This document shows positions 9,597-18,802 of a stretch of DNA of 64,000 nt, in pieces. The DNA comes from Bryobacterales bacterium (GTDB lineage Bacteria > Acidobacteriota > Terriglobia > Bryobacterales > Bryobacteraceae). The stretch covers positions 1 through 64,000 of the forward strand of contig JAHCHD010000003.1 in NCBI GenBank assembly GCA_026129915.1, in the 5' to 3' direction. The notes beneath the pieces were generated by a model, which had not been told where the DNA came from, ran no database searches, and worked only from the letters and a program-made list of their open reading frames with translations. Both the position numbers and the translations under genes were made by a program. How positions within the stretch are numbered: the first letter of the stretch is position 1; the number at the start of each line of letters is the position of its first letter.

Positions 9597-10715
9597 ATGC
9601 CCGCAACACGCCGCCAACTACTGAGAGCCGCTCTGGCCGCGGGGTTCAGCTACGGTGTATGCGCTCGCGCTAGCGTCGCCGCCGAGGAAATCGCGATTTG
9701 GAAAGCGGGCGAAGGTGGCTATCATACCTATCGCATCCCCGCCCTTCTGACAACAAAGCGCGGGACCCTGCTGGCCTTCTGCGAAGGGCGCCGGGACAAC
9801 TCCCGCGACCATGGCGACATCGACATCCTGGTGAAGCGCAGCACGGACGGAGGGCGCACGTGGTCACCTCACCAGATCGTTTACGAGGAAGGTGGCGACA
9901 GTAAAGTCACGATTGGGAATCCCTGCCCCGTGGTGGAGGAACGCACCGGCACCATCTGGCTGCCCTTCAATCGTGAGAACGACGCCGTCCTCATCACCAG
10001 CAGCACAGACGACGGGCGTACATGGGCAAAGCCCGCTGACATCACGGCGTCTGTAAAGAAGCCCGGCTGGACCTGGTATGCCGCAGGACCTGGCACAGGC
10101 ATCCAGATTCGCGCAGGGCGCTATCGCGGCCGCGTGGTGATTCCCTGCGACCATCGCGAGAAAGTCGACGGCCAGGACGTAAAGATGTCGCACGTCTTCT
10201 ATAGCGACGACCGCGGCAAGACATGGAAGCTGGGCGGCACAGTGGGGTTGCACACGGACGAGTGTCAGGTGGCCGAAACTGCCGGCGGCAACCTCATCAT
10301 CAATATGCGCAATTACTGGGAGCGCGATGGGAAGCAGCCTGAAAAGGGAGGCATGCGCGCCATCTCCCGCAGCACGGATGGCGGCCTCACCTGGTCGCCG
10401 CTGGAGTTTCACTCCCAACTCATCGAGCCGGTGTGCCAGGCCAGCCTGCTTCGGCACCCAAAGCCAAGGGGTGGGGGAAAGCTGATGCTCTTCTCGAATC
10501 CTGCTGACCGCCAGAAGCGCGTCCGCATGACCATCCGGCAGAGCCGCGACGAAGGAAGAACATGGCCCGTGCAGAAGATCATCCATGAGGGTCCCTCGGC
10601 GTACTCTTCTCTGGCGATCCTGCCGGAGGGTCATCTCGGCATCCTCTATGAACGTGGCGCCCAGAGTGCCTATGAATCCCTCACCTTTTCTCGACTCCCG
10701 CTGGAGGTCTGGTAA
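9597..10715 (+). CDS. Exported sialidase-fold (GH33/BNR) protein
   Basis: A 372-residue six-bladed propeller protein with a twin-arginine signal (ATRRQLLRAALAAG) ending near the Ala-rich region at about 28. It has YRIP (arginine of the carboxylate-binding triad) and five Asp boxes (STDGGRTW, STDDGRTW, SDDRGKTW, STDGGLTW, SRDEGRTW). EPVCQAS matches the glutamate-containing loop common in bacterial sialidases. It differs in export route from the lipoprotein sialidase at 2078, so the two may act in different compartments or on different linkages. It is the last gene of the locus. The following 65 bases lead into the promoter of the B12 operon with no clear terminator. Confidence 0.87.
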   Translation: MPATRRQLLRAALAAGFSYGVCARASVAAEEIAIWKAGEGGYHTYRIPALLTTKRGTLLAFCEGRRDNSRDHGDIDILVKRSTDGGRTWSPHQIVYEEGGDSKVTIGNPCPVVEERTGTIWLPFNRENDAVLITSSTDDGRTWAKPADITASVKKPGWTWYAAGPGTGIQIRAGRYRGRVVIPCDHREKVDGQDVKMSHVFYSDDRGKTWKLGGTVGLHTDECQVAETAGGNLIINMRNYWERDGKQPEKGGMRAISRSTDGGLTWSPLEFHSQLIEPVCQASLLRHPKPRGGGKLMLFSNPADRQKRVRMTIRQSRDEGRTWPVQKIIHEGPSAYSSLAILPEGHLGILYERGAQSAYESLTFSRLPLEVW

Positions 10716-10780: not shown

Positions 10781-10809
10781 TTGACGGTTCTCGGCGCTCA
10801 TGCTACGTT
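10781..10809 (+). promoter_or_regulatory. Sigma-70-type promoter of the B12 operon
   Basis: TTGACG at 10781-10786 is followed by a 17-base spacer and TACGTT at 10804-10809. The predicted transcription start, about seven bases later, falls at the first base of the riboswitch closing helix (10817). That alignment is the main reason for the call. The -10 is weak. Confidence 0.5.
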
Positions 10810-10816
10810 GAAATGT

Positions 10817-11002
10817 CCTCGGGTGCCCGATTGGGCATAACAGGGAAGCCGGTGCGAATCCGGCGCGGTCCCGCCACTGTGATGGAGGCGGCTGTTTCAT
10901 TGAAGCCACTTGGGTGCCTGCACTCCAGGGAAGGCGAAGCAGCCAGCGACGATGGGCGATGCGCTCTCGACGCCACCTCTCAGCCAGGAGACCTACCTGA
11001 GG
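10817..11002 (+). ncRNA. Cobalamin (B12) riboswitch aptamer
   Basis: The conserved core is plainly visible. GGGAAGCCGG and the matching pairing strand lie near 10843-10864, CCCGCCACTGTGA near 10870-10882, and the B12 box GCCAGGAGACCTACC near 10983-10997. The closing helix P1 pairs CCTCGGGT (10817-10824) with ACCTGAGG (10995-11002), allowing one G-U pair. Adenosyl- or other cobalamin binding would be expected to repress the downstream uptake genes btuF-btuC-btuD and the TonB receptor. The about 245-base gap to the first gene is long, and the likely expression platform is the start-codon hairpin at 11229-11251. Confidence 0.93.
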
Positions 11003-11228
11003 CGAAATGGCTGACTTTCTGCGGAGCACGGAAAGAATGCGAATGAACCTCATTCCCATCCTGACATCTCAAAGAAGCCCCCGCCCTGTGTTGTGGGAAG
11101 TCTGCCGTCCAATGCCGGAGGTAGCCGCCCATGCACATTGTGTGTTTCGTATCCGTTAACTCACATGCCTGCCCGGCGGATCTGTGTCCACGGCCCGTGC
11201 GCCTTGCGCCCCAACGGCAGACCTTGGC
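11003..11228 (+). other. Riboswitch-to-btuF leader
   Basis: About 225 bases between aptamer and first gene. No convincing intrinsic terminator is present. A short hairpin GAATGA/TCATTC occurs near 11041-11055. Small open frames here lack Shine-Dalgarno sites or recognisable products, so I do not call a gene. Confidence 0.5.
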
Positions 11229-11251
11229 ATCATGCGAGGTGCTCGCATGAT
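11229..11251 (+). promoter_or_regulatory. Perfect 10-bp hairpin over the btuF start
   Basis: ATCATGCGAG (11229-11238), a three-base loop GTG, and CTCGCATGAT (11242-11251) pair perfectly. The structure contains the GAGGT Shine-Dalgarno-like bases and the ATG at 11247. In RNA it would block ribosome access, making it the natural candidate for translational output of the cobalamin riboswitch. Confidence 0.65.
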
Positions 11252-12242
11252 TCGTTCCTGGTTGGCCCAGGCGGGCCGGGCTCCGCTGGCACTGCTTGCT
11301 TCCGCGCTTCTTATGCTCGCCCTCATTGGTTGGCTTGCGCCCACAGCCGGTGTGGCCAAGGCCAACCGTATCGATAACGACGGCCCACCCCCCTTTGAAG
11401 GCGGCCCCGACACTTGGCCGCGCACCCTGAAGGACTTCGACGATTTCGCCGTGAGAATCGAACAGCCCCCGCAGCGGGTGGTTTCCCAGTACTGGTCAAT
11501 CGACGAGTTTCTTTACACCCTTCTTCCCCCGGAAGATGTGGTGGGCGTCAGCGAAACTGCCTACCTGCCGGGCGTCAGCAATGTGCTCAACGAAGTGGAA
11601 CGCTTCAAGCCCGTGGTGGCTTCGGATCCTGAGCGGGTTATGCGCACGCTACCTGACTTGGTAGTGGTGGCAAGCAGCGCCCGCGCGGACTACACGGCGC
11701 TTCTGCGCTCCACAGGTGTCCCCGTTTACCGGCTGGCCACTACCTTTACCACCCTTCATCAAATTGCAGATACCATTCGCGCCCTCGGCTACCTTACCGG
11801 CAGCGAAGACGAAGCCCACCGTGCGCATTCAGCATTCCTGTCGGCTGTCGATCACGCACGGCGCAGCCGGCCTCCAGGAATGCCGCCACCACGAGTCTTG
11901 GGGCTTGGGGGCACCTTCAGTTACGGAAGCAAGACCTTGTTTCACGACATCGTCACCACCGTGGGCGCCACCAACGTAGGCGCGGAAGGCGGCCTGGAGG
12001 GCTACCGACCGGTGAATTCAGAACAGATTCTGCGATGGAACCCCGAGTGGATACTGCTCTCGGCGGAACAGGGCAAGGAACAGCAAGTCCGGCAGCGCGT
12101 GCTGGACGACCCCGCCATCGCCCTTACGCAGGCCGCGCAACAGGGGCGTATCCTGGTTTTCGACTCGCGTGTGTTCATGCCCATGTCCCCCTACACACGG
12201 CACTTTCTGGAGGCGCTTCCCCGCGAGTTATATGGCAACTAG
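11247..12242 (+). CDS. btuF: Cobalamin ABC transporter substrate-binding protein (BtuF-like)
   Basis: A 331-residue periplasmic binding protein of the BtuF/FecB class III fold. The helical-backbone layout is visible: beta-strand QRVVSQYWSIDEFLYTLLP near residue 75, VGVSETAY, DLVVVASS, and a C-terminal lobe with NAEG-like and NSEQILRWNPEWIL segments. The start at 11247 is chosen because GAGGT lies 7 bases upstream and a good signal peptide with a hydrophobic core follows. An in-frame ATG at 11232 is the alternative, and both lie in the hairpin. It is the first gene after the cobalamin riboswitch, followed by overlapping permease and ATPase genes, which assigns the ligand as a cobalamin or corrinoid rather than a siderophore. 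Confidence 0.85.
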   Translation: MIRSWLAQAGRAPLALLASALLMLALIGWLAPTAGVAKANRIDNDGPPPFEGGPDTWPRTLKDFDDFAVRIEQPPQRVVSQYWSIDEFLYTLLPPEDVVGVSETAYLPGVSNVLNEVERFKPVVASDPERVMRTLPDLVVVASSARADYTALLRSTGVPVYRLATTFTTLHQIADTIRALGYLTGSEDEAHRAHSAFLSAVDHARRSRPPGMPPPRVLGLGGTFSYGSKTLFHDIVTTVGATNVGAEGGLEGYRPVNSEQILRWNPEWILLSAEQGKEQQVRQRVLDDPAIALTQAAQQGRILVFDSRVFMPMSPYTRHFLEALPRELYGN

Positions 12243-13281
12243 TTCCACCCGATTGGGAATCTATTACGGTGTTATCGGCCCCTTGCTCCTGTTCAGCATG
12301 GTGGCGGCGGTAGGCATTGGCAGCACGGAACTCCCTTGGGAAACCATTGTGCGCGTGCTGGGTGCGAAGCTGTTGCCTGCCGGCTGGGTGGACACCAGCG
12401 GCATCACTAAGGCCGACGACGTCATCGTCTGGATGATCCGCCTGCCACGCGCGCTGGTGGCGGCTTTCGTGGGGGCGGGCCTCGCGCTAGCGGGCGCGGT
12501 AATGCAAGGTTTGTTTCGCAACCCTCTGGCTGAGCCGGGTCTGGCGGGTGCTGGCTCCGGCGCGGTTCTGGGCGCGGTGCTGGCCTTCGTGGCCGGGTGG
12601 AGCGCCACCAACGTCATCAGCCTTCCAGCCTGTGCCATTGCGGGCGCCTTGCTATCGCTGCTGCTGGTCTACTCAATGGCTACCCGAGCGGGAATCACCC
12701 CGGTATCCACGCTGTTGCTGGCGGGTATCGCCGTGAGTTCTCTGTTGACGGCCGTTTCCAGCTTGCTTCTGTCGCTGAACATCGTGAATTGGCAGATTGC
12801 TCAAGAGATCGTGTTCTGGATGATGGGCGGACTGGAATCCCGCACCTGGACCCACGTGTGGCTCTGCGGTCCATTGGTGGCGCTGGGCTCCGTGGTGTCT
12901 GTATTCCACGCCCGTGAACTCGACCTGATGCAGCAAGGCGAAGATGTAGCCGCTGCCTTCGGCGTGGACGTCGAGAGCACGAAGCGCACGCTGATTCTTC
13001 TGGCCGCCCTGCTTACCGGGGCAAGCGTGGCCGTTGCCGGCTCAGTGGCTTTTGTGGGGTTGGTGGTGCCGCATGCGGTACGGATGGTGCTAGGACCTTC
13101 CTCGCGGACGCTGCTGCCTGCCAGTGCACTGGGGGGCGCTATCTTCCTGGTGCTCTGTGACCTTTTCGCGCGCACCGTAGACCCGCCCACGGAGCTGCGT
13201 CTGGGCGTGGTAACCGCCCTTACTGGCGGACCGGTATTCATTTGGCTGCTGATGCGGCGCTACCGCGAGGTGAGCGCATGA
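12232..13281 (+). CDS. btuC: Cobalamin ABC transporter permease (BtuC-like)
   Basis: A 349-residue FecCD/BtuC-family inner-membrane permease with about ten hydrophobic helices. Family motifs are RLPRALVAAFVGAGLALAG and MQGLFRNPLAEPGLAG in the first half. The cytoplasmic coupling region GEDVAAAFGVDVE is in the second half, and VGLVVPHAVRM comes near the end. The ATG at 12232 overlaps the btuF stop by 11 bases and is preferred over an opening further upstream inside btuF. It would form the BtuC2D2 channel with the ATPase encoded next. Expression is expected to follow the riboswitch. Confidence 0.9.
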   Translation: MATSSTRLGIYYGVIGPLLLFSMVAAVGIGSTELPWETIVRVLGAKLLPAGWVDTSGITKADDVIVWMIRLPRALVAAFVGAGLALAGAVMQGLFRNPLAEPGLAGAGSGAVLGAVLAFVAGWSATNVISLPACAIAGALLSLLLVYSMATRAGITPVSTLLLAGIAVSSLLTAVSSLLLSLNIVNWQIAQEIVFWMMGGLESRTWTHVWLCGPLVALGSVVSVFHARELDLMQQGEDVAAAFGVDVESTKRTLILLAALLTGASVAVAGSVAFVGLVVPHAVRMVLGPSSRTLLPASALGGAIFLVLCDLFARTVDPPTELRLGVVTALTGGPVFIWLLMRRYREVSA

Positions 13282-14066
13282 GCACGCTGCTGGAAGCGCG
13301 TTCCATATCGGTGAGCCGCGGCGGATGCCCGCTTCTGCAAGAGGCGACCCTCAGCTTGCACCCGTCTGATTTCGTGGTGATTGCCGGTCCCAACGGCAGC
13401 GGCAAGAGCACCTTACTGCGTGCGCTGGCGGGCATCTGGCCGGTGTCGGCGGGCGAGGTGTTGCTGGAAGGACAGCCGCTTGCCAGCCACAGCCGCAGAC
13501 AAGTGGCCCGGCTGCTCTCCTATGTTCCGCAGGACACCCGCATGGATTTTGGATTTACCGTGCGAGAGATCGTTACCATGGGGCGGCATCCCCACATTGC
13601 CCGATTTGCCGCGGAAACCACCCGCGACCGTGACGCCATCGAGCAGGGCATGGCGCTTTGCGATGTCGGCCACCTCCGCAATCGCTCCGTAAACACGCTC
13701 TCCGGCGGCGAGCGCCAGCGTGTGCTGATTGCCCGCTGCCTGGCCGCGGAACCGCGATGCATTCTGCTGGACGAACCCACGGCCAGCCTTGACCTCGAAC
13801 ATGCCCTGGGCATCTTCGCGCTAGCCCAGCGCCTCGCATCCCAGGGCCGCGCCGTGGCCATGGCCACACACGACCTCAACAGCGGCCTGCGCTTCGCACC
13901 TTTGGTGGTGCTGCTCAGCCAAGGCCGCGTAGCGCACAGCGGGCCTTCGGGCGATGCTCTTCCTCAGTCTGTCCTCGAACAGGTGTTCGGGGTTCGCACG
14001 GAACGCCTCACCGACGCCGCCGGCGCACCACATTATCTCTTTCATCGCAAGGATATTCATACATGA
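13278..14066 (+). CDS. btuD: Cobalamin ABC transporter ATP-binding protein (BtuD-like)
   Basis: A 262-residue ABC ATPase. Walker A GPNGSGKST is at 37-45, the Q-loop in YVPQDT, the signature LSGGERQR at 141-148, Walker B ILLDEP at about 162-167, and the H-loop histidine in MATHDLNS. The ATG lies in an ATGA overlap with btuC, and the stop overlaps the next gene start in the same way, so the operon is tightly coupled. It powers import through the BtuC-like permease. Length and domain content are normal for FecE/BtuD-type subunits. Confidence 0.92.
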   Translation: MSTLLEARSISVSRGGCPLLQEATLSLHPSDFVVIAGPNGSGKSTLLRALAGIWPVSAGEVLLEGQPLASHSRRQVARLLSYVPQDTRMDFGFTVREIVTMGRHPHIARFAAETTRDRDAIEQGMALCDVGHLRNRSVNTLSGGERQRVLIARCLAAEPRCILLDEPTASLDLEHALGIFALAQRLASQGRAVAMATHDLNSGLRFAPLVVLLSQGRVAHSGPSGDALPQSVLEQVFGVRTERLTDAAGAPHYLFHRKDIHT

Positions 14067-16498
14067 TTCGGTTATTTTCTCTAGTTCTGTTCGCCTGTCT
14101 GCTATCGCTCGCGCAGCCGAAAGGTAGCTTGTGGGGTTCCATCGTCGACCCTGATGGCGCTGCCGTGCCGGAAGCCCGCGTCCAGCTCTACCGGCCGGAA
14201 AGCCAGGGGCGGCTGGCGACATCCACCGATTCCTCGGGCAACTACGCCTTCCGGCAGTTGCAGGCAGGGCGCTACATTCTCGAAATCAACAAACGCGGCT
14301 TTGGCGTTACCAGCCAGTCTGTCGTTATCTCAGACAATGCGGACGAACGGCTCGATGTGGAGCTCTCCGTTCAGGGAGTCCCGCAGACTGTAGTGGTAAC
14401 CGCCACGGATACCCCCCTCACCATGGATGAGATCTCGAAGGCGGTGAGCGTGGTCTCAAGCAGCGAGATCCAGAGCCGTAACGAGTTTTCCGTCGCGGAA
14501 GCCTTGCGCACCGTACCCGGCATCCAAGTACTGAACCTTGGCGGACCTGGGCAGCAGACCACGCTTCGCACGCGCGGACTGCGCCCTGATGCCACTGCGG
14601 TGCTGGTGGATGGGCTGCGTTTTCGCGATGCCTCCAGCCTACAATCGGACGCGAGCTCGCTGCTGGCCTCAATGAATCTAGTGGGCGCAGACCGCGTGGA
14701 AGTGTTGCGCGGCTCGGGTTCCTCCATCTATGGCACCAACGCCGTGGGGGGAGCCGTGAATGTAATTACACAGGATGGGGGGGCGCCCACCCGCGCCAGC
14801 CTTCTCACCGAAGGGGGCAGCCTGGGCCTCTTCCGCGGGCGCGCCAGCTTGGGCGGAGGTGCCCTGCAGGATCGCCTGCGCTATTCGGGCAGTGTTCTGC
14901 ATCTGAACGTCGTAAATGGCGTGGACGGCAACGACGCGGCCCGCAGCACCGGCGGTCAGGGGTTCCTTCGTTACGACCTTGCGCCCACCATGAACCTCAC
15001 CGGTCGCGTGTGGGCCTCCGATGACTTTGTGCAAACGAACGCCGGGCCTACCACTGCGGGCGTACCTGCCGCGAACTTCCCCAGCCAGGGCAACGTCCCC
15101 GTGCGCCTCCTATCGCCCGCAAATGTGCGCCTCTTTGAGGCAGGCGGCCAGGCGGACTTTACGGGAGTGACACTCATCCCTGGCCGCGACGATCCAGACG
15201 CCCGTCGCGCCACACGCTTCGCTACCACAGCTCTAGTCTTCCGCCACGCACTCACGCCGCGCATGAACTGGCAGACCAGCTACCAGCGCATGCATAGCTG
15301 GCGAGTGTTTGAAGATGGCCCGGGCGGTTCCGGCTTTCAGCCGCAAGCCAACAGTTTCAGCAACTACGTAGGTGATATCGATACCGTGGATGTACGCGGA
15401 ACCGCTTTGCTGGCTCCATGGTTCACCATTACCGGGGGATACGAGTTTGAGCGCGAAGCCTATTTCGACAAGCAAGACAACAACCTTCCTGGCAATAACC
15501 GCGTCGCCACTCAAACCAACATCCGGCAGGACGCCAACTCCGCCTACTTCTCGTCGCAGATTGGTCTGCTCGACCGGCGGCTGCAGGTGGTGGCCTCAGG
15601 GCGCGGGCAGTTCTTCACGCTGGCACGGCCTCGCTTCCAGCTCACCGGAATAGCGAACAACTACCAGACAGTCCCGCTCGAAGCGCCCCCGAAAGCCCTC
15701 ACTGGCGATCTCTCGGTTTCTTACCTCGTCAGCCAGACCAACACCAAAGTTCGCGCCCACGCAGGCAACGCCTATCGCGCGCCTTCTCTCTATGAGCGCT
15801 TCGGCGGAGGATTTGGCGCGATTCCCGCCACCGGCGAAATTAGCTTCACCCCGTATGGTGACCCGCGGCTCTCGCCCGACCGCTACAACAACGTCGACGC
15901 CGGCATCGACCAATACCTTTTTGGCAACCGAGTCCGCGCCTCCGCCACCTGGTTCTACACGCGCGTGGTGTCCGTCACAGGCTTCGACTTCAGTGGCGCC
16001 ATTAACCCGGCCACTGACCCTTACGGCCGCTTCATCGGCTATATCAACGGCGCGGGCGGCATCTCACGCGGCGTGGAACTGGGTGTGGAAGCGAAACCTG
16101 CTCGCGGCACCATCATCAACTTCGCCTACACCCACGTGAAGGCTGGGCAGGACCGCGACATCAGCGTGCCAGGCTTCTTTCGCCCGGCGCGGGTGCATGA
16201 GCACGTGACCAGTTTCATGGTTTCCCACGATTGGACGCGCAGGCTCAACACCACCGTCGACTACTTTCACATGTCCGGAGCCTACGACTTCTACTTTGCA
16301 GTGGACCGCTCACGGGCTTTCCTGAACCCTGGCTTCCAGAAAACCGACGTGGTGGCAAGCTACCTCGTGTGGGAAGGGGAACGGCGCTCTGCCAGGGTCT
16401 ACGGCAAAGTGGACAACGTCTTTGACCAGACCTACTACCACGCGGGGTTTCTGGCTCCCGGCGCTACGGGCCTGGTGGGGCTGCAATTGCAGTTCTAA
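14063..16498 (+). CDS. TonB-dependent outer-membrane receptor of the B12 operon
   Basis: An 811-residue receptor. It has a signal peptide, then a carboxypeptidase-regulatory-like beta-sandwich (about 20-100, GSIVDPDGAAVPEARV). The plug (about 125-240) carries the VLVDGLRFRD and VEVLRGSGSSIYGTNAVGGAVN segments typical of TonB receptors. The 22-strand barrel ends in Phe (LQLQF). It is translationally coupled to btuD by an ATGA overlap and lies under a cobalamin riboswitch, so it is the functional counterpart of BtuB. The extra N-terminal sandwich is not found in enteric BtuB and is typical of Acidobacteriota/Bacteroidota receptors. No TonB/ExbBD genes are in the window. Confidence 0.88.
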   Translation: MIRLFSLVLFACLLSLAQPKGSLWGSIVDPDGAAVPEARVQLYRPESQGRLATSTDSSGNYAFRQLQAGRYILEINKRGFGVTSQSVVISDNADERLDVELSVQGVPQTVVVTATDTPLTMDEISKAVSVVSSSEIQSRNEFSVAEALRTVPGIQVLNLGGPGQQTTLRTRGLRPDATAVLVDGLRFRDASSLQSDASSLLASMNLVGADRVEVLRGSGSSIYGTNAVGGAVNVITQDGGAPTRASLLTEGGSLGLFRGRASLGGGALQDRLRYSGSVLHLNVVNGVDGNDAARSTGGQGFLRYDLAPTMNLTGRVWASDDFVQTNAGPTTAGVPAANFPSQGNVPVRLLSPANVRLFEAGGQADFTGVTLIPGRDDPDARRATRFATTALVFRHALTPRMNWQTSYQRMHSWRVFEDGPGGSGFQPQANSFSNYVGDIDTVDVRGTALLAPWFTITGGYEFEREAYFDKQDNNLPGNNRVATQTNIRQDANSAYFSSQIGLLDRRLQVVASGRGQFFTLARPRFQLTGIANNYQTVPLEAPPKALTGDLSVSYLVSQTNTKVRAHAGNAYRAPSLYERFGGGFGAIPATGEISFTPYGDPRLSPDRYNNVDAGIDQYLFGNRVRASATWFYTRVVSVTGFDFSGAINPATDPYGRFIGYINGAGGISRGVELGVEAKPARGTIINFAYTHVKAGQDRDISVPGFFRPARVHEHVTSFMVSHDWTRRLNTTVDYFHMSGAYDFYFAVDRSRAFLNPGFQKTDVVASYLVWEGERRSARVYGKVDNVFDQTYYHAGFLAPGATGLVGLQLQF

Positions 16499-16567: not shown

Positions 16568-18550
16568 CTAACCGGCCGCAATGGGATCGCTGCTGTAAGC
16601 CCTCATTTCAAACACCCGCGCCATCGGGTCGCCGTTCGTCTTGTGCACCAGCAGCCGCACCCTATCCACACTGCGCGGCGGGAACGCGATGCGGTTCAGG
16701 CGCTGGTGATTGCCCTCCACCTTGGCCACCGTTTCGTAGGTGGATGAACCTGGCTTTCGCACCTGCACCTCATAGTCGCGGACGGTCTCCGGCTGCGGGG
16801 CACGGACGATGGTGCGGGTCATTCGGTCATTCGAGGTAAGTGTAAGCTCCCGTTCAAACCCGGTGTCGAAAGTCACTTGCACCCAACCCACGGTCTTTGG
16901 CTGATCCCAGGCGAGTTCGACCCACGTGGGTTGCTGGCCGATCTTCGCCGCCCAATGGTTCATCGCTCCCTTGGGAATGTCGCGCACTACGCTGTTAAGG
17001 ATCTTCTCGGGTTCGCGCCCAGGCTCATGGCCACATGCCAGCACCTTGGCGCTGCGCGCATGGTCCAGAGGGTCCTGGTTCGTAATGCGCTCGATGCTCT
17101 GGTCGTCGCGCAGCAGGTTCTGCTGCAGCCGGCTGAGCCGCTGTTTGTCGTTCGCAATTTCGCGCGGCGTCACCTTCTCCTTCACGCATTGCGCGGCCGC
17201 GGTGCCTGCGGCCTGCCCCAGCACCGCGCAAGTGGCCATCACGCGCGTGGACGAGAACGCCACGTGCGACGCGCTGATGTTCCGCCCGGCCATCATCAAG
17301 TTGCTGATGTTGCGGCTGTATAGGGTGCGGTAGGGGATGTTGTACACCTCCTTGGTACGGATCTGTTGGGCCGGTTCCAGGTCCGCCCGGTCAAAACCTC
17401 CCGGAGGATGGTCGTCCATCGGCCAGCCGCCCATGCATACGGAATCTTCGAAGTGGCCCCCAGTCTCCAGATCCTGTTGCTTCAGCATGTAGTCGCCTAG
17501 CAGACGGCGGCTTTCGCGCTTGCCCGGCATCATGCCCACCCAGTCCATTGCCCAGCGGCGGGAGTTAGGATGCTCACCGCTGTTCTTGATGTAGTCCCAA
17601 ACGCCTGTCACGATGGCAAGCAGTTCGAAGCGAATGCGCTCGTTGTCGTGAATGGTGTTGAGGTGCCCGCCCCACTCAATCCACCAGTAACCGTATTCCC
17701 AAAACTCAGTGCCGCGATGCTTCAGGTGATCGCGCGATACCTTGCGCGCCCACTTCGGCGCGGTGAACGGCATGGGCTTGTCGTGGAGCTTAGAGGTAAA
17801 CAGAATGCTGTTCCCCATCGTTTCGGCATCCGCCTTCTCCGGGGCCAGGCTCTCGCTCAACTCGCTCCTGGACTCGCGTCCGTAGCGCGTATCGGCACCG
17901 GACTCCAGCCCCAGACGGCTGTCGCCCGTACAGTCGAGAAACATCTTGGCTGCTATGCGATAGAGGTGTTCAGTGCGGTCGCAGCGCACCATTACGCGCT
18001 CAATGCGACTTGCCTTGGTTTCGGCTGAGTAGAGCGTAGCGTCAAGCAGCAGGGTGATGTTGGGTTCAGAGACGCACTTGTCGTAAAGCAACAAATCCCA
18101 CAACTCCCAGCAGCGCTGAGGATTATTGACTGCATCGTCGAGACGCAGTTCCTCCAGAATGCCGCCCTCACGCCAGCCGGGGCGGCCCTTGTGCGAGTTC
18201 GCCCCCACGATGTGCATCTTCACCTCGCTGGAGGAGTTGCCGCCCAGGCGTGAACGGTCCTGCGCCAGAATCACCTTGGCTCCATGACGCGCGGCGGCAA
18301 TGGCCGCGTGCACACCGGCCGGACCGCCACCAGCCACAAACACGTCGCAGCTCATGTCCACCAGCCGCATGTGGGGCTCCGGTGAGGCAAGTCGGGCGTT
18401 GGCCACCGAGAGCGGCTGGATGCGTTCGACAATCTGTTGCGCGTCGAGGGTACGTGGCGCGGTGTCGGATGGGGCGAGTCCTTGCGCATTCACATACAAC
18501 GAGTAAGTGGTGAGGCCCGCGGCCGAACGGAAGAGGTCTCGTCGTTTCAA
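16568..18550 (-). CDS. Tat-exported FAD-dependent oxidoreductase
   Basis: A 660-residue protein of the FAD_oxidored class. The dinucleotide-binding motif is VFVAGGGPAGVHAA, followed by RLGGNSS, typical of secreted FAD enzymes clustered with glycan genes. I place the start at TTG 18550, because it is immediately followed by the twin-arginine signal KRRDLFRSAAG; the frame stays open to 18640 but without a signal at that end. Midway are GDYMLKQQDLETGG and SSTRVMATCAVLGQAAGTAAAQ, shared by the family. The last roughly 130 residues look like a galactose-binding/F5-8-type beta-sandwich. The oxidation catalysed is unknown; some relatives are mis-annotated as xanthan lyases. It is divergent from the Gfo/Idh/MocA gene 250 bases away. 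Confidence 0.8.
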   Translation of the reverse strand: MKRRDLFRSAAGLTTYSLYVNAQGLAPSDTAPRTLDAQQIVERIQPLSVANARLASPEPHMRLVDMSCDVFVAGGGPAGVHAAIAAARHGAKVILAQDRSRLGGNSSSEVKMHIVGANSHKGRPGWREGGILEELRLDDAVNNPQRCWELWDLLLYDKCVSEPNITLLLDATLYSAETKASRIERVMVRCDRTEHLYRIAAKMFLDCTGDSRLGLESGADTRYGRESRSELSESLAPEKADAETMGNSILFTSKLHDKPMPFTAPKWARKVSRDHLKHRGTEFWEYGYWWIEWGGHLNTIHDNERIRFELLAIVTGVWDYIKNSGEHPNSRRWAMDWVGMMPGKRESRRLLGDYMLKQQDLETGGHFEDSVCMGGWPMDDHPPGGFDRADLEPAQQIRTKEVYNIPYRTLYSRNISNLMMAGRNISASHVAFSSTRVMATCAVLGQAAGTAAAQCVKEKVTPREIANDKQRLSRLQQNLLRDDQSIERITNQDPLDHARSAKVLACGHEPGREPEKILNSVVRDIPKGAMNHWAAKIGQQPTWVELAWDQPKTVGWVQVTFDTGFERELTLTSNDRMTRTIVRAPQPETVRDYEVQVRKPGSSTYETVAKVEGNHQRLNRIAFPPRSVDRVRLLVHKTNGDPMARVFEMRAYSSDPIAAG

Positions 18551-18802
18551 TGTGCCCTGCTTTCTTTGGCGTGGTTGGAACTGGCCACACGGCTCCCCGG
18601 CGCAGCACGGCCCAAAAGGGCCGTTCGCGACATCCGCCAACCGACGTCTGTTGTAATCTTACGTTGGCATCGCACTCGGAGCAATGCACCCACGCGACGC
18701 TCTTGCCTCGTCTGCAACCTGAACTCATCCGGCGGCGCGATAAGATACTGAGTACCCGGCCATACAGCCGGTTGATTCTGTCTCTTGGGGGACTCTTCAT
18801 CG

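Follow-up and report, generated by a model that had tools for sequence, protein, structure and literature searches.

The btuF gene that opens a B12 uptake operon in this Bryobacterales genome is probably reached by a B12-repressed translational riboswitch through a relay of leader ORFs, a reading to which we give a probability of about 0.6. As judged from the letters of the window (the whole stretch of 64,000 nucleotides that was analysed), the leader contains a cobalamin aptamer, a P13 hairpin, two leader ORFs (uORF1 and uORF2), ATGA overlaps, and competing helices that recur in related leaders (Table 1). A perfect 10-bp hairpin over the SD and start codon of btuF is probably a coupling gate that makes btuF depend on translation of uORF2.

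Table 1. Features of the riboswitch leader and of the operon behind it, in window coordinates
Feature	Position	Strand	Basis or remark
Cobalamin riboswitch aptamer (RF00174)	10804..11014	+	cmscan 104.4 bits, E 4.4e-25
Antisequester (long-range) helix, 5' strand GGCUGACUUUCUGCGG	11009..11024	+	RNAalifold, 11 leaders; overlaps P13 5' arm
P13 hairpin CUUUCU-GCGGAGCAC-GGAAAG	11015..11035	+	Same element after the aptamer in ~20 related riboswitches
uORF1, 40 codons, MRMNLIPILTSQRS...	11037..11159	+	ATG/GTG at the same site after P13 in the class
RBS hairpin sequestering uORF2 SD (11117-11122) and ATG 11131	11087..11137	+	Fold -23.1 kcal/mol
Antisequester (long-range) helix, 3' strand UUGUGGGAAGUCUGCC	11091..11106	+	Overlaps 5' arm of RBS hairpin
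uORF2, 39 codons	11131..11250	+	Start is the pduO start position in L070/L188; TGA overlaps btuF ATG (ATGA)
10-bp hairpin over btuF SD and ATG	11229..11251	+	Inside final uORF2 codons plus 1 nt; absent in relatives
btuF-like periplasmic B12-binding protein (Peripla_BP_2)	11247..12242	+	Pfam PF01497, E 4.3e-25
btuC-like permease (FecCD)	12232..13281	+	PF01032, E 3.5e-91; start picked from ORF overlap
btuD-like ATPase	13278..14066	+	PF00005, E 1.1e-31; ATGA overlap with btuC
TonB-dependent receptor (btuB-like)	14063..16498	+	PF07715, E 4e-22; ATGA overlap with btuD

Cobalamin riboswitch and leader ORFs

The genes behind the leader follow the order btuF-like, btuC-like, btuD-like and TonB receptor (btuB-like), which is that of a B12 uptake operon (btuFCD-btuB), and their neighbours on the minus strand are a BNR-repeat sialidase-like gene (9597-10712) and a gene for an FAD-dependent oxidoreductase with a DUF7402 domain (16568-18640). 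Near relatives of the window genome include a Bryobacteraceae genome. The aptamer has the conserved core and the B12 box, scores 104.4 bits against a gathering threshold of 31.5 bits, is the only cobalamin aptamer found in the window's genome, and ends 215 bases before the hairpin at the btuF start. Two cobalamin riboswitches are present in the same-genus genome G079 (L188, G079:C330), one upstream of pduO and a TonB receptor, the other upstream of btuF. At L206, L212, and L185, two cobalamin aptamers occupy opposite strands in a back-to-back arrangement and both point outward.

For comparison, 58 riboswitch loci were fetched from the family, in many of which P13 carries the SD and the main gene begins a few bases further on; many other Bryobacteraceae have a different P13, which bears the SD of the main gene. 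The form found in the window, CUUUCUGCGGAGNACGGAAAG or close to it, occurs at about 20 loci and is followed by a start codon 1–4 nt later. The P13 loop (11021-11029) contains CGGAG, which is complementary, with one bulge, to the L5 sequence UCCCG (10869-10873), and by this complementarity an L5-L13 kissing loop is suggested, since UCCCG is the consensus in L5. The same P13 loop holds the SD of uORF1 (GCGGAG, 11021-11026). Two P13-like hairpins with SD-like loops stand in tandem behind a single aptamer at L100 (G108:C105).

At L102, the start codon after P13 opens the main gene, a TonB receptor, directly, and at all other loci with the window-type P13 it opens a leader ORF of 12–91 codons (uORF1). 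This ORF overlaps the main start or stops within 6 nt of it at 20 of 22 loci, with the main-gene start codons assigned by eye, and at L071 and L160-L162 its stop and the main start share an ATGA or GTGA. Between the two starts, the uORF1 frame contains 5 stops, three of which lie no more than 6 nt from the main start, as against 17 and 9 in the other two frames, which as evidence of coding is suggestive only. The peptides of both uORF1 and uORF2 are poorly conserved. In another family, pduO at L206 lies behind a 67-codon leader ORF that ends in ATGA.

Mutually exclusive helices in the leader

No intrinsic terminator was found in the leader, and the entire leader folds no better than shuffled sequence, so comparison between relatives was used instead. 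Applied to 11 related leaders, RNAalifold returned unprompted a long-range helix of 16 positions, in which the six bases before P13, together with the P13 5' arm and the start of its loop, pair with a stretch lying about 40 to 25 nt before the main start. Pairing is possible in 88.8% of cells across these leaders as against 36–55% (maximum 54.5%) when the strands are slid by 1–3 columns, a count over related leaders and not over independent events, and covariation is modest (two pairs with two-sided changes), the P13 arm being nearly invariant. The best helix falls on these same two sites in nine leaders, and 1–13 of 300 shuffles reach it. The helix is not universal even inside the genus, being missing from the same-genus locus L003. 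A covariance model running from P13 to the main start was searched in 399 genomes of the class and found its own training members as its only strong matches, plus weaker ones that include L209-L211; the three weak matches checked against Rfam, L206, L207, and L212, lie directly after cobalamin aptamers, but since the model contains P13, these weak matches by themselves lend no support to the long-range helix.

The hairpin that sequesters the SD and ATG of uORF2, and in relatives the SD and start codon of the main gene, pairs in 69.9% of cells in the same 11 leaders as against at most 46.9% when slid, with five pairs showing two-sided changes; instances of the hairpin are CGUGGG..CCCAUG in L070 and CGCGGA..UUCCGUG in L168. 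The 3' strand of the long-range helix doubles as the 5' arm of this RBS hairpin, so that P13 with the RBS hairpin on the one side and the long-range helix on the other are mutually exclusive, and the two states of the window are nearly equal in energy (−41.1 and −39.3 kcal/mol, a gap of 1.8). The leader thus combines an RBS hairpin with an exclusive alternative pairing, and on these modelled folds the arrangement is as expected for a B12-OFF translational switch. A possible 9-bp pairing between GTCTGCCGT (11100-11108) and ACGGCAGAC (11214-11222) would enclose uORF2 and compete with both switch helices, and the motif GGCAGAC resembles the 3' arm of the relatives' RBS hairpin.

From these features, we infer a B12-repressed translational riboswitch, including its response to B12 and the direction of that response. 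With B12 bound, the L5-L13 kissing loop would hold P13 (11015-11035) and block the long-range helix, P13 would mask the SD of uORF1 as well, and the hairpin at 11087-11137 would close over the SD and ATG of uORF2. Without B12, the P13 5' arm, together with the six preceding bases, would pair with 11091-11106, opening both P13 and the uORF2 hairpin and allowing uORF2 to be translated. In this state, uORF1 may or may not be translated in bulk, because the long-range helix also pairs GCGG of the uORF1 SD.

The hairpin at the btuF start

The original prediction had placed an exact 10-bp stem with a GTG loop over GAGGT and ATG 11247, with an alternative in-frame ATG in the other arm, at the head of a B12 operon with a cobalamin riboswitch 225 bases upstream. 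The letters at 11229-11251 on the plus strand, ATCATGCGAG-GTG-CTCGCATGAT, agree with this in full, the SD-like GAGGT of btuF lying at 11236-11240 and the second ATG at 11232 in the arm opposite ATG 11247, and the setting, a B12 uptake operon preceded by such a riboswitch, is borne out by the Rfam match (RF00174, 104.4 bits) and the Pfam gene calls. ATG 11247 appears the likelier start of btuF, because it overlaps the preceding stop as ATGA and its methionine stands 8 residues from the conserved AGRAP motif both here and in L003. The isolated hairpin has a folding energy of −13.2 kcal/mol, and opening the region from −12 to +3 around the btuF ATG costs 15.7 kcal/mol, which places this start in the top 1.6% of the 1842 ATGs in the window. 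No other perfect hairpin of 10 bp or more with a loop of 3–10 occurs in the 64-kb window; since about 1.2 (range 0–4) are expected per 64 kb from first-order Markov sequences of matching composition, only its position on a start codon is unusual, with a chance roughly estimated at 3%.

Conservation of the stem among relatives, which had been proposed as a check, does not hold. Only one other same-genus genome carries this btuF (L003, 67% identical), with the aptamer ending at a similar distance and the start again in ATGA, and no hairpin of this type was found at its btuF start, where opening costs 5.7 kcal/mol as against 15.7 in the window. In the more distant G042, G029, and G205, no counterpart was found either, and other structures occupy the btuF start (opening 10.6, 10.2, and 8.1 kcal/mol, respectively). 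As far as these sequences go, the hairpin is therefore lineage-specific, local, and unconserved, and is not an RBS hairpin common to the relatives. The operon as such can do without either element, since L003 has neither the long-range helix nor the 10-bp hairpin.

All but the last base of the hairpin lies inside uORF2, and a ribosome reaching the uORF2 stop must consequently unfold it and then stands on the SD and ATG of btuF. In the leader-ORF relay, the hairpin would prevent independent initiation at btuF, as ribosomes arriving directly would meet a closed site, and a ribosome ending uORF2 at the ATGA would unfold it and either restart on btuF or admit another ribosome there. Translation of the leader ORFs and its coupling to btuF are, like the B12 response, our interpretation of the arrangement. 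An unlikely alternative, which nevertheless carries some weight, is that the hairpin arose by chance or mutation, for instance as an inverted repeat left by template switching, and has little effect, being always melted by uORF2 ribosomes, with B12 control passing through uORF2 and the ATGA overlap alone. The number expected by chance and the lack of conservation fit such an origin, as does L003, which keeps the aptamer, P13, uORF1, uORF2, and the ATGA without the hairpin, and at the very site of the hairpin the tail of uORF2 has three codons more in the window than in L003. Against it stand the exact placement on the SD and start codon, which leaves the btuF ATG less accessible than nearly all others in the window, and the fairly closed btuF starts of G042 and G029.

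It is improbable that the hairpin is itself the output of the riboswitch, with B12 hiding or exposing the SD and ATG of btuF, as the original prediction had supposed from a hairpin exactly covering these elements downstream of a cobalamin aptamer. A module of P13, competing long-range helix, and RBS hairpin (11087-11137) lies closer to the aptamer and is common to relatives, the hairpin is missing from L003, whose operon and riboswitch are the same, and nothing corresponds to it in G042, G029, or G205, and the folds show no pairing of its arms with the aptamer or P13. The long distance had also been taken as a sign of an intermediate pairing or another regulator, and the intermediate pairing has been upheld by the long-range helix and the RBS hairpin; the two leader ORFs by which the bridge would reach btuF had been missed. 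A role of the dyad as operator DNA bound by a transcription factor is very improbable. The perfect 23-bp inverted repeat speaks for it, but no second copy was found within 3 mismatches across 5.28 Mb (genome 85% complete), and the dyad lies more than 200 bases into the transcribed leader and is unconserved.

Operon history and comparison with known systems

The start equivalent to ATG 11131 belongs to pduO or another main gene in relatives, and the window leader is 79% identical over 10816-11133 to the pduO leader of same-genus G079, the match ending at the pduO ATG. In G042, G029, and G205, the riboswitch is followed by uORF1, pduO, a further gene termed X, and btuF, the last two sharing an ATGA overlap, and in L003 a 35-codon ORF runs from nearly the same place as uORF2 and ends in ATGA on btuF. 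At all eight loci compared (the window, L003, G042, G029, G205, and three with a 12-codon uORF1), an ATGA or GTGA joins the btuF start to the stop before it. Loss of pduO and X with both ends retained would be the simplest account of the window leader. A fuller history, in which an ancestral riboswitch-pduO-X-btuFCD operon lost pduO and X, the pduO start was left behind as a leader ORF, a double relay arose (uORF1 over uORF2, and uORF2 coupled by ATGA to btuF), and a new hairpin locked btuF to this relay, is offered tentatively, as a reading less likely than not. Alignment of uORF2 between the window and L003 is no better than that of shuffled sequences. Nor could uORF2 be shown to be a recognizable remnant of gene X, since 68 of 1000 shuffles reached the score of its best local alignment to the end of X in G042. 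A second PduO-like reading frame in the window's genome (G000:C201:24040-24588) is only 44% identical.

The closest known counterpart is ppe2 of Mycobacterium tuberculosis, where AUGA termination-reinitiation (uPPE2-PPE2) below a B12 riboswitch was established by reporter and tag experiments (PMC11260477). Like the window, that riboswitch has a B12 aptamer, a P13-like hairpin that bears the SD of a short ORF lying out of frame, and an AUGA where this ORF ends on the main gene (PMC11260477), and the same layout, with the SD of a leader ORF in the riboswitch output and a stop at the main start, is seen here in the uORF1 SD within P13, the overlap of uORF1 and uORF2, and the ATGA of uORF2 and btuF, as well as at L071 and L160-L162. 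The ppe2 case differs in aptamer variant and phylum, and in having a bench-tested relay where that of the window is predicted from sequence; the window goes beyond it with two serial leader ORFs, the second of which has its own RBS hairpin, with a long-range helix as competitor of P13, and with a further hairpin where the third reading frame starts. In translational cobalamin riboswitches, a kissing loop stabilizes P13 and favors the RBS hairpin, and Escherichia coli btuB and env8HyCbl share with the window the path from L5-L13 kissing loop through P13 to RBS hairpin (PMC10653944), whereas in the window the RBS hairpin sits on a leader ORF and not on btuF, and is followed by 39 codons and the ATGA overlap. 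In the "S." riboswitch, which has another ligand, the riboswitch SD is likewise important to a start codon some distance further on (74 nt), but both AUGs are in one frame and no stop/start overlap of a leader ORF is used. In the RNA unfolding model of translational coupling, an upstream ribosome opens structure over a downstream SD (reviewed in PMC12548453); here, the upstream ORF would be a riboswitch-controlled leader ORF of 39 codons and not a regular gene.

A long gap between an aptamer and the annotated gene can conceal the true output, and leader ORFs of the uORF1 and uORF2 kind escape ordinary annotation. If the relay is correct, the leader-ORF relay below B12 riboswitches that was tested in M. 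tuberculosis would extend to the Bryobacteraceae and related families, and an operon could remain under the control of its riboswitch after the loss of its first genes.
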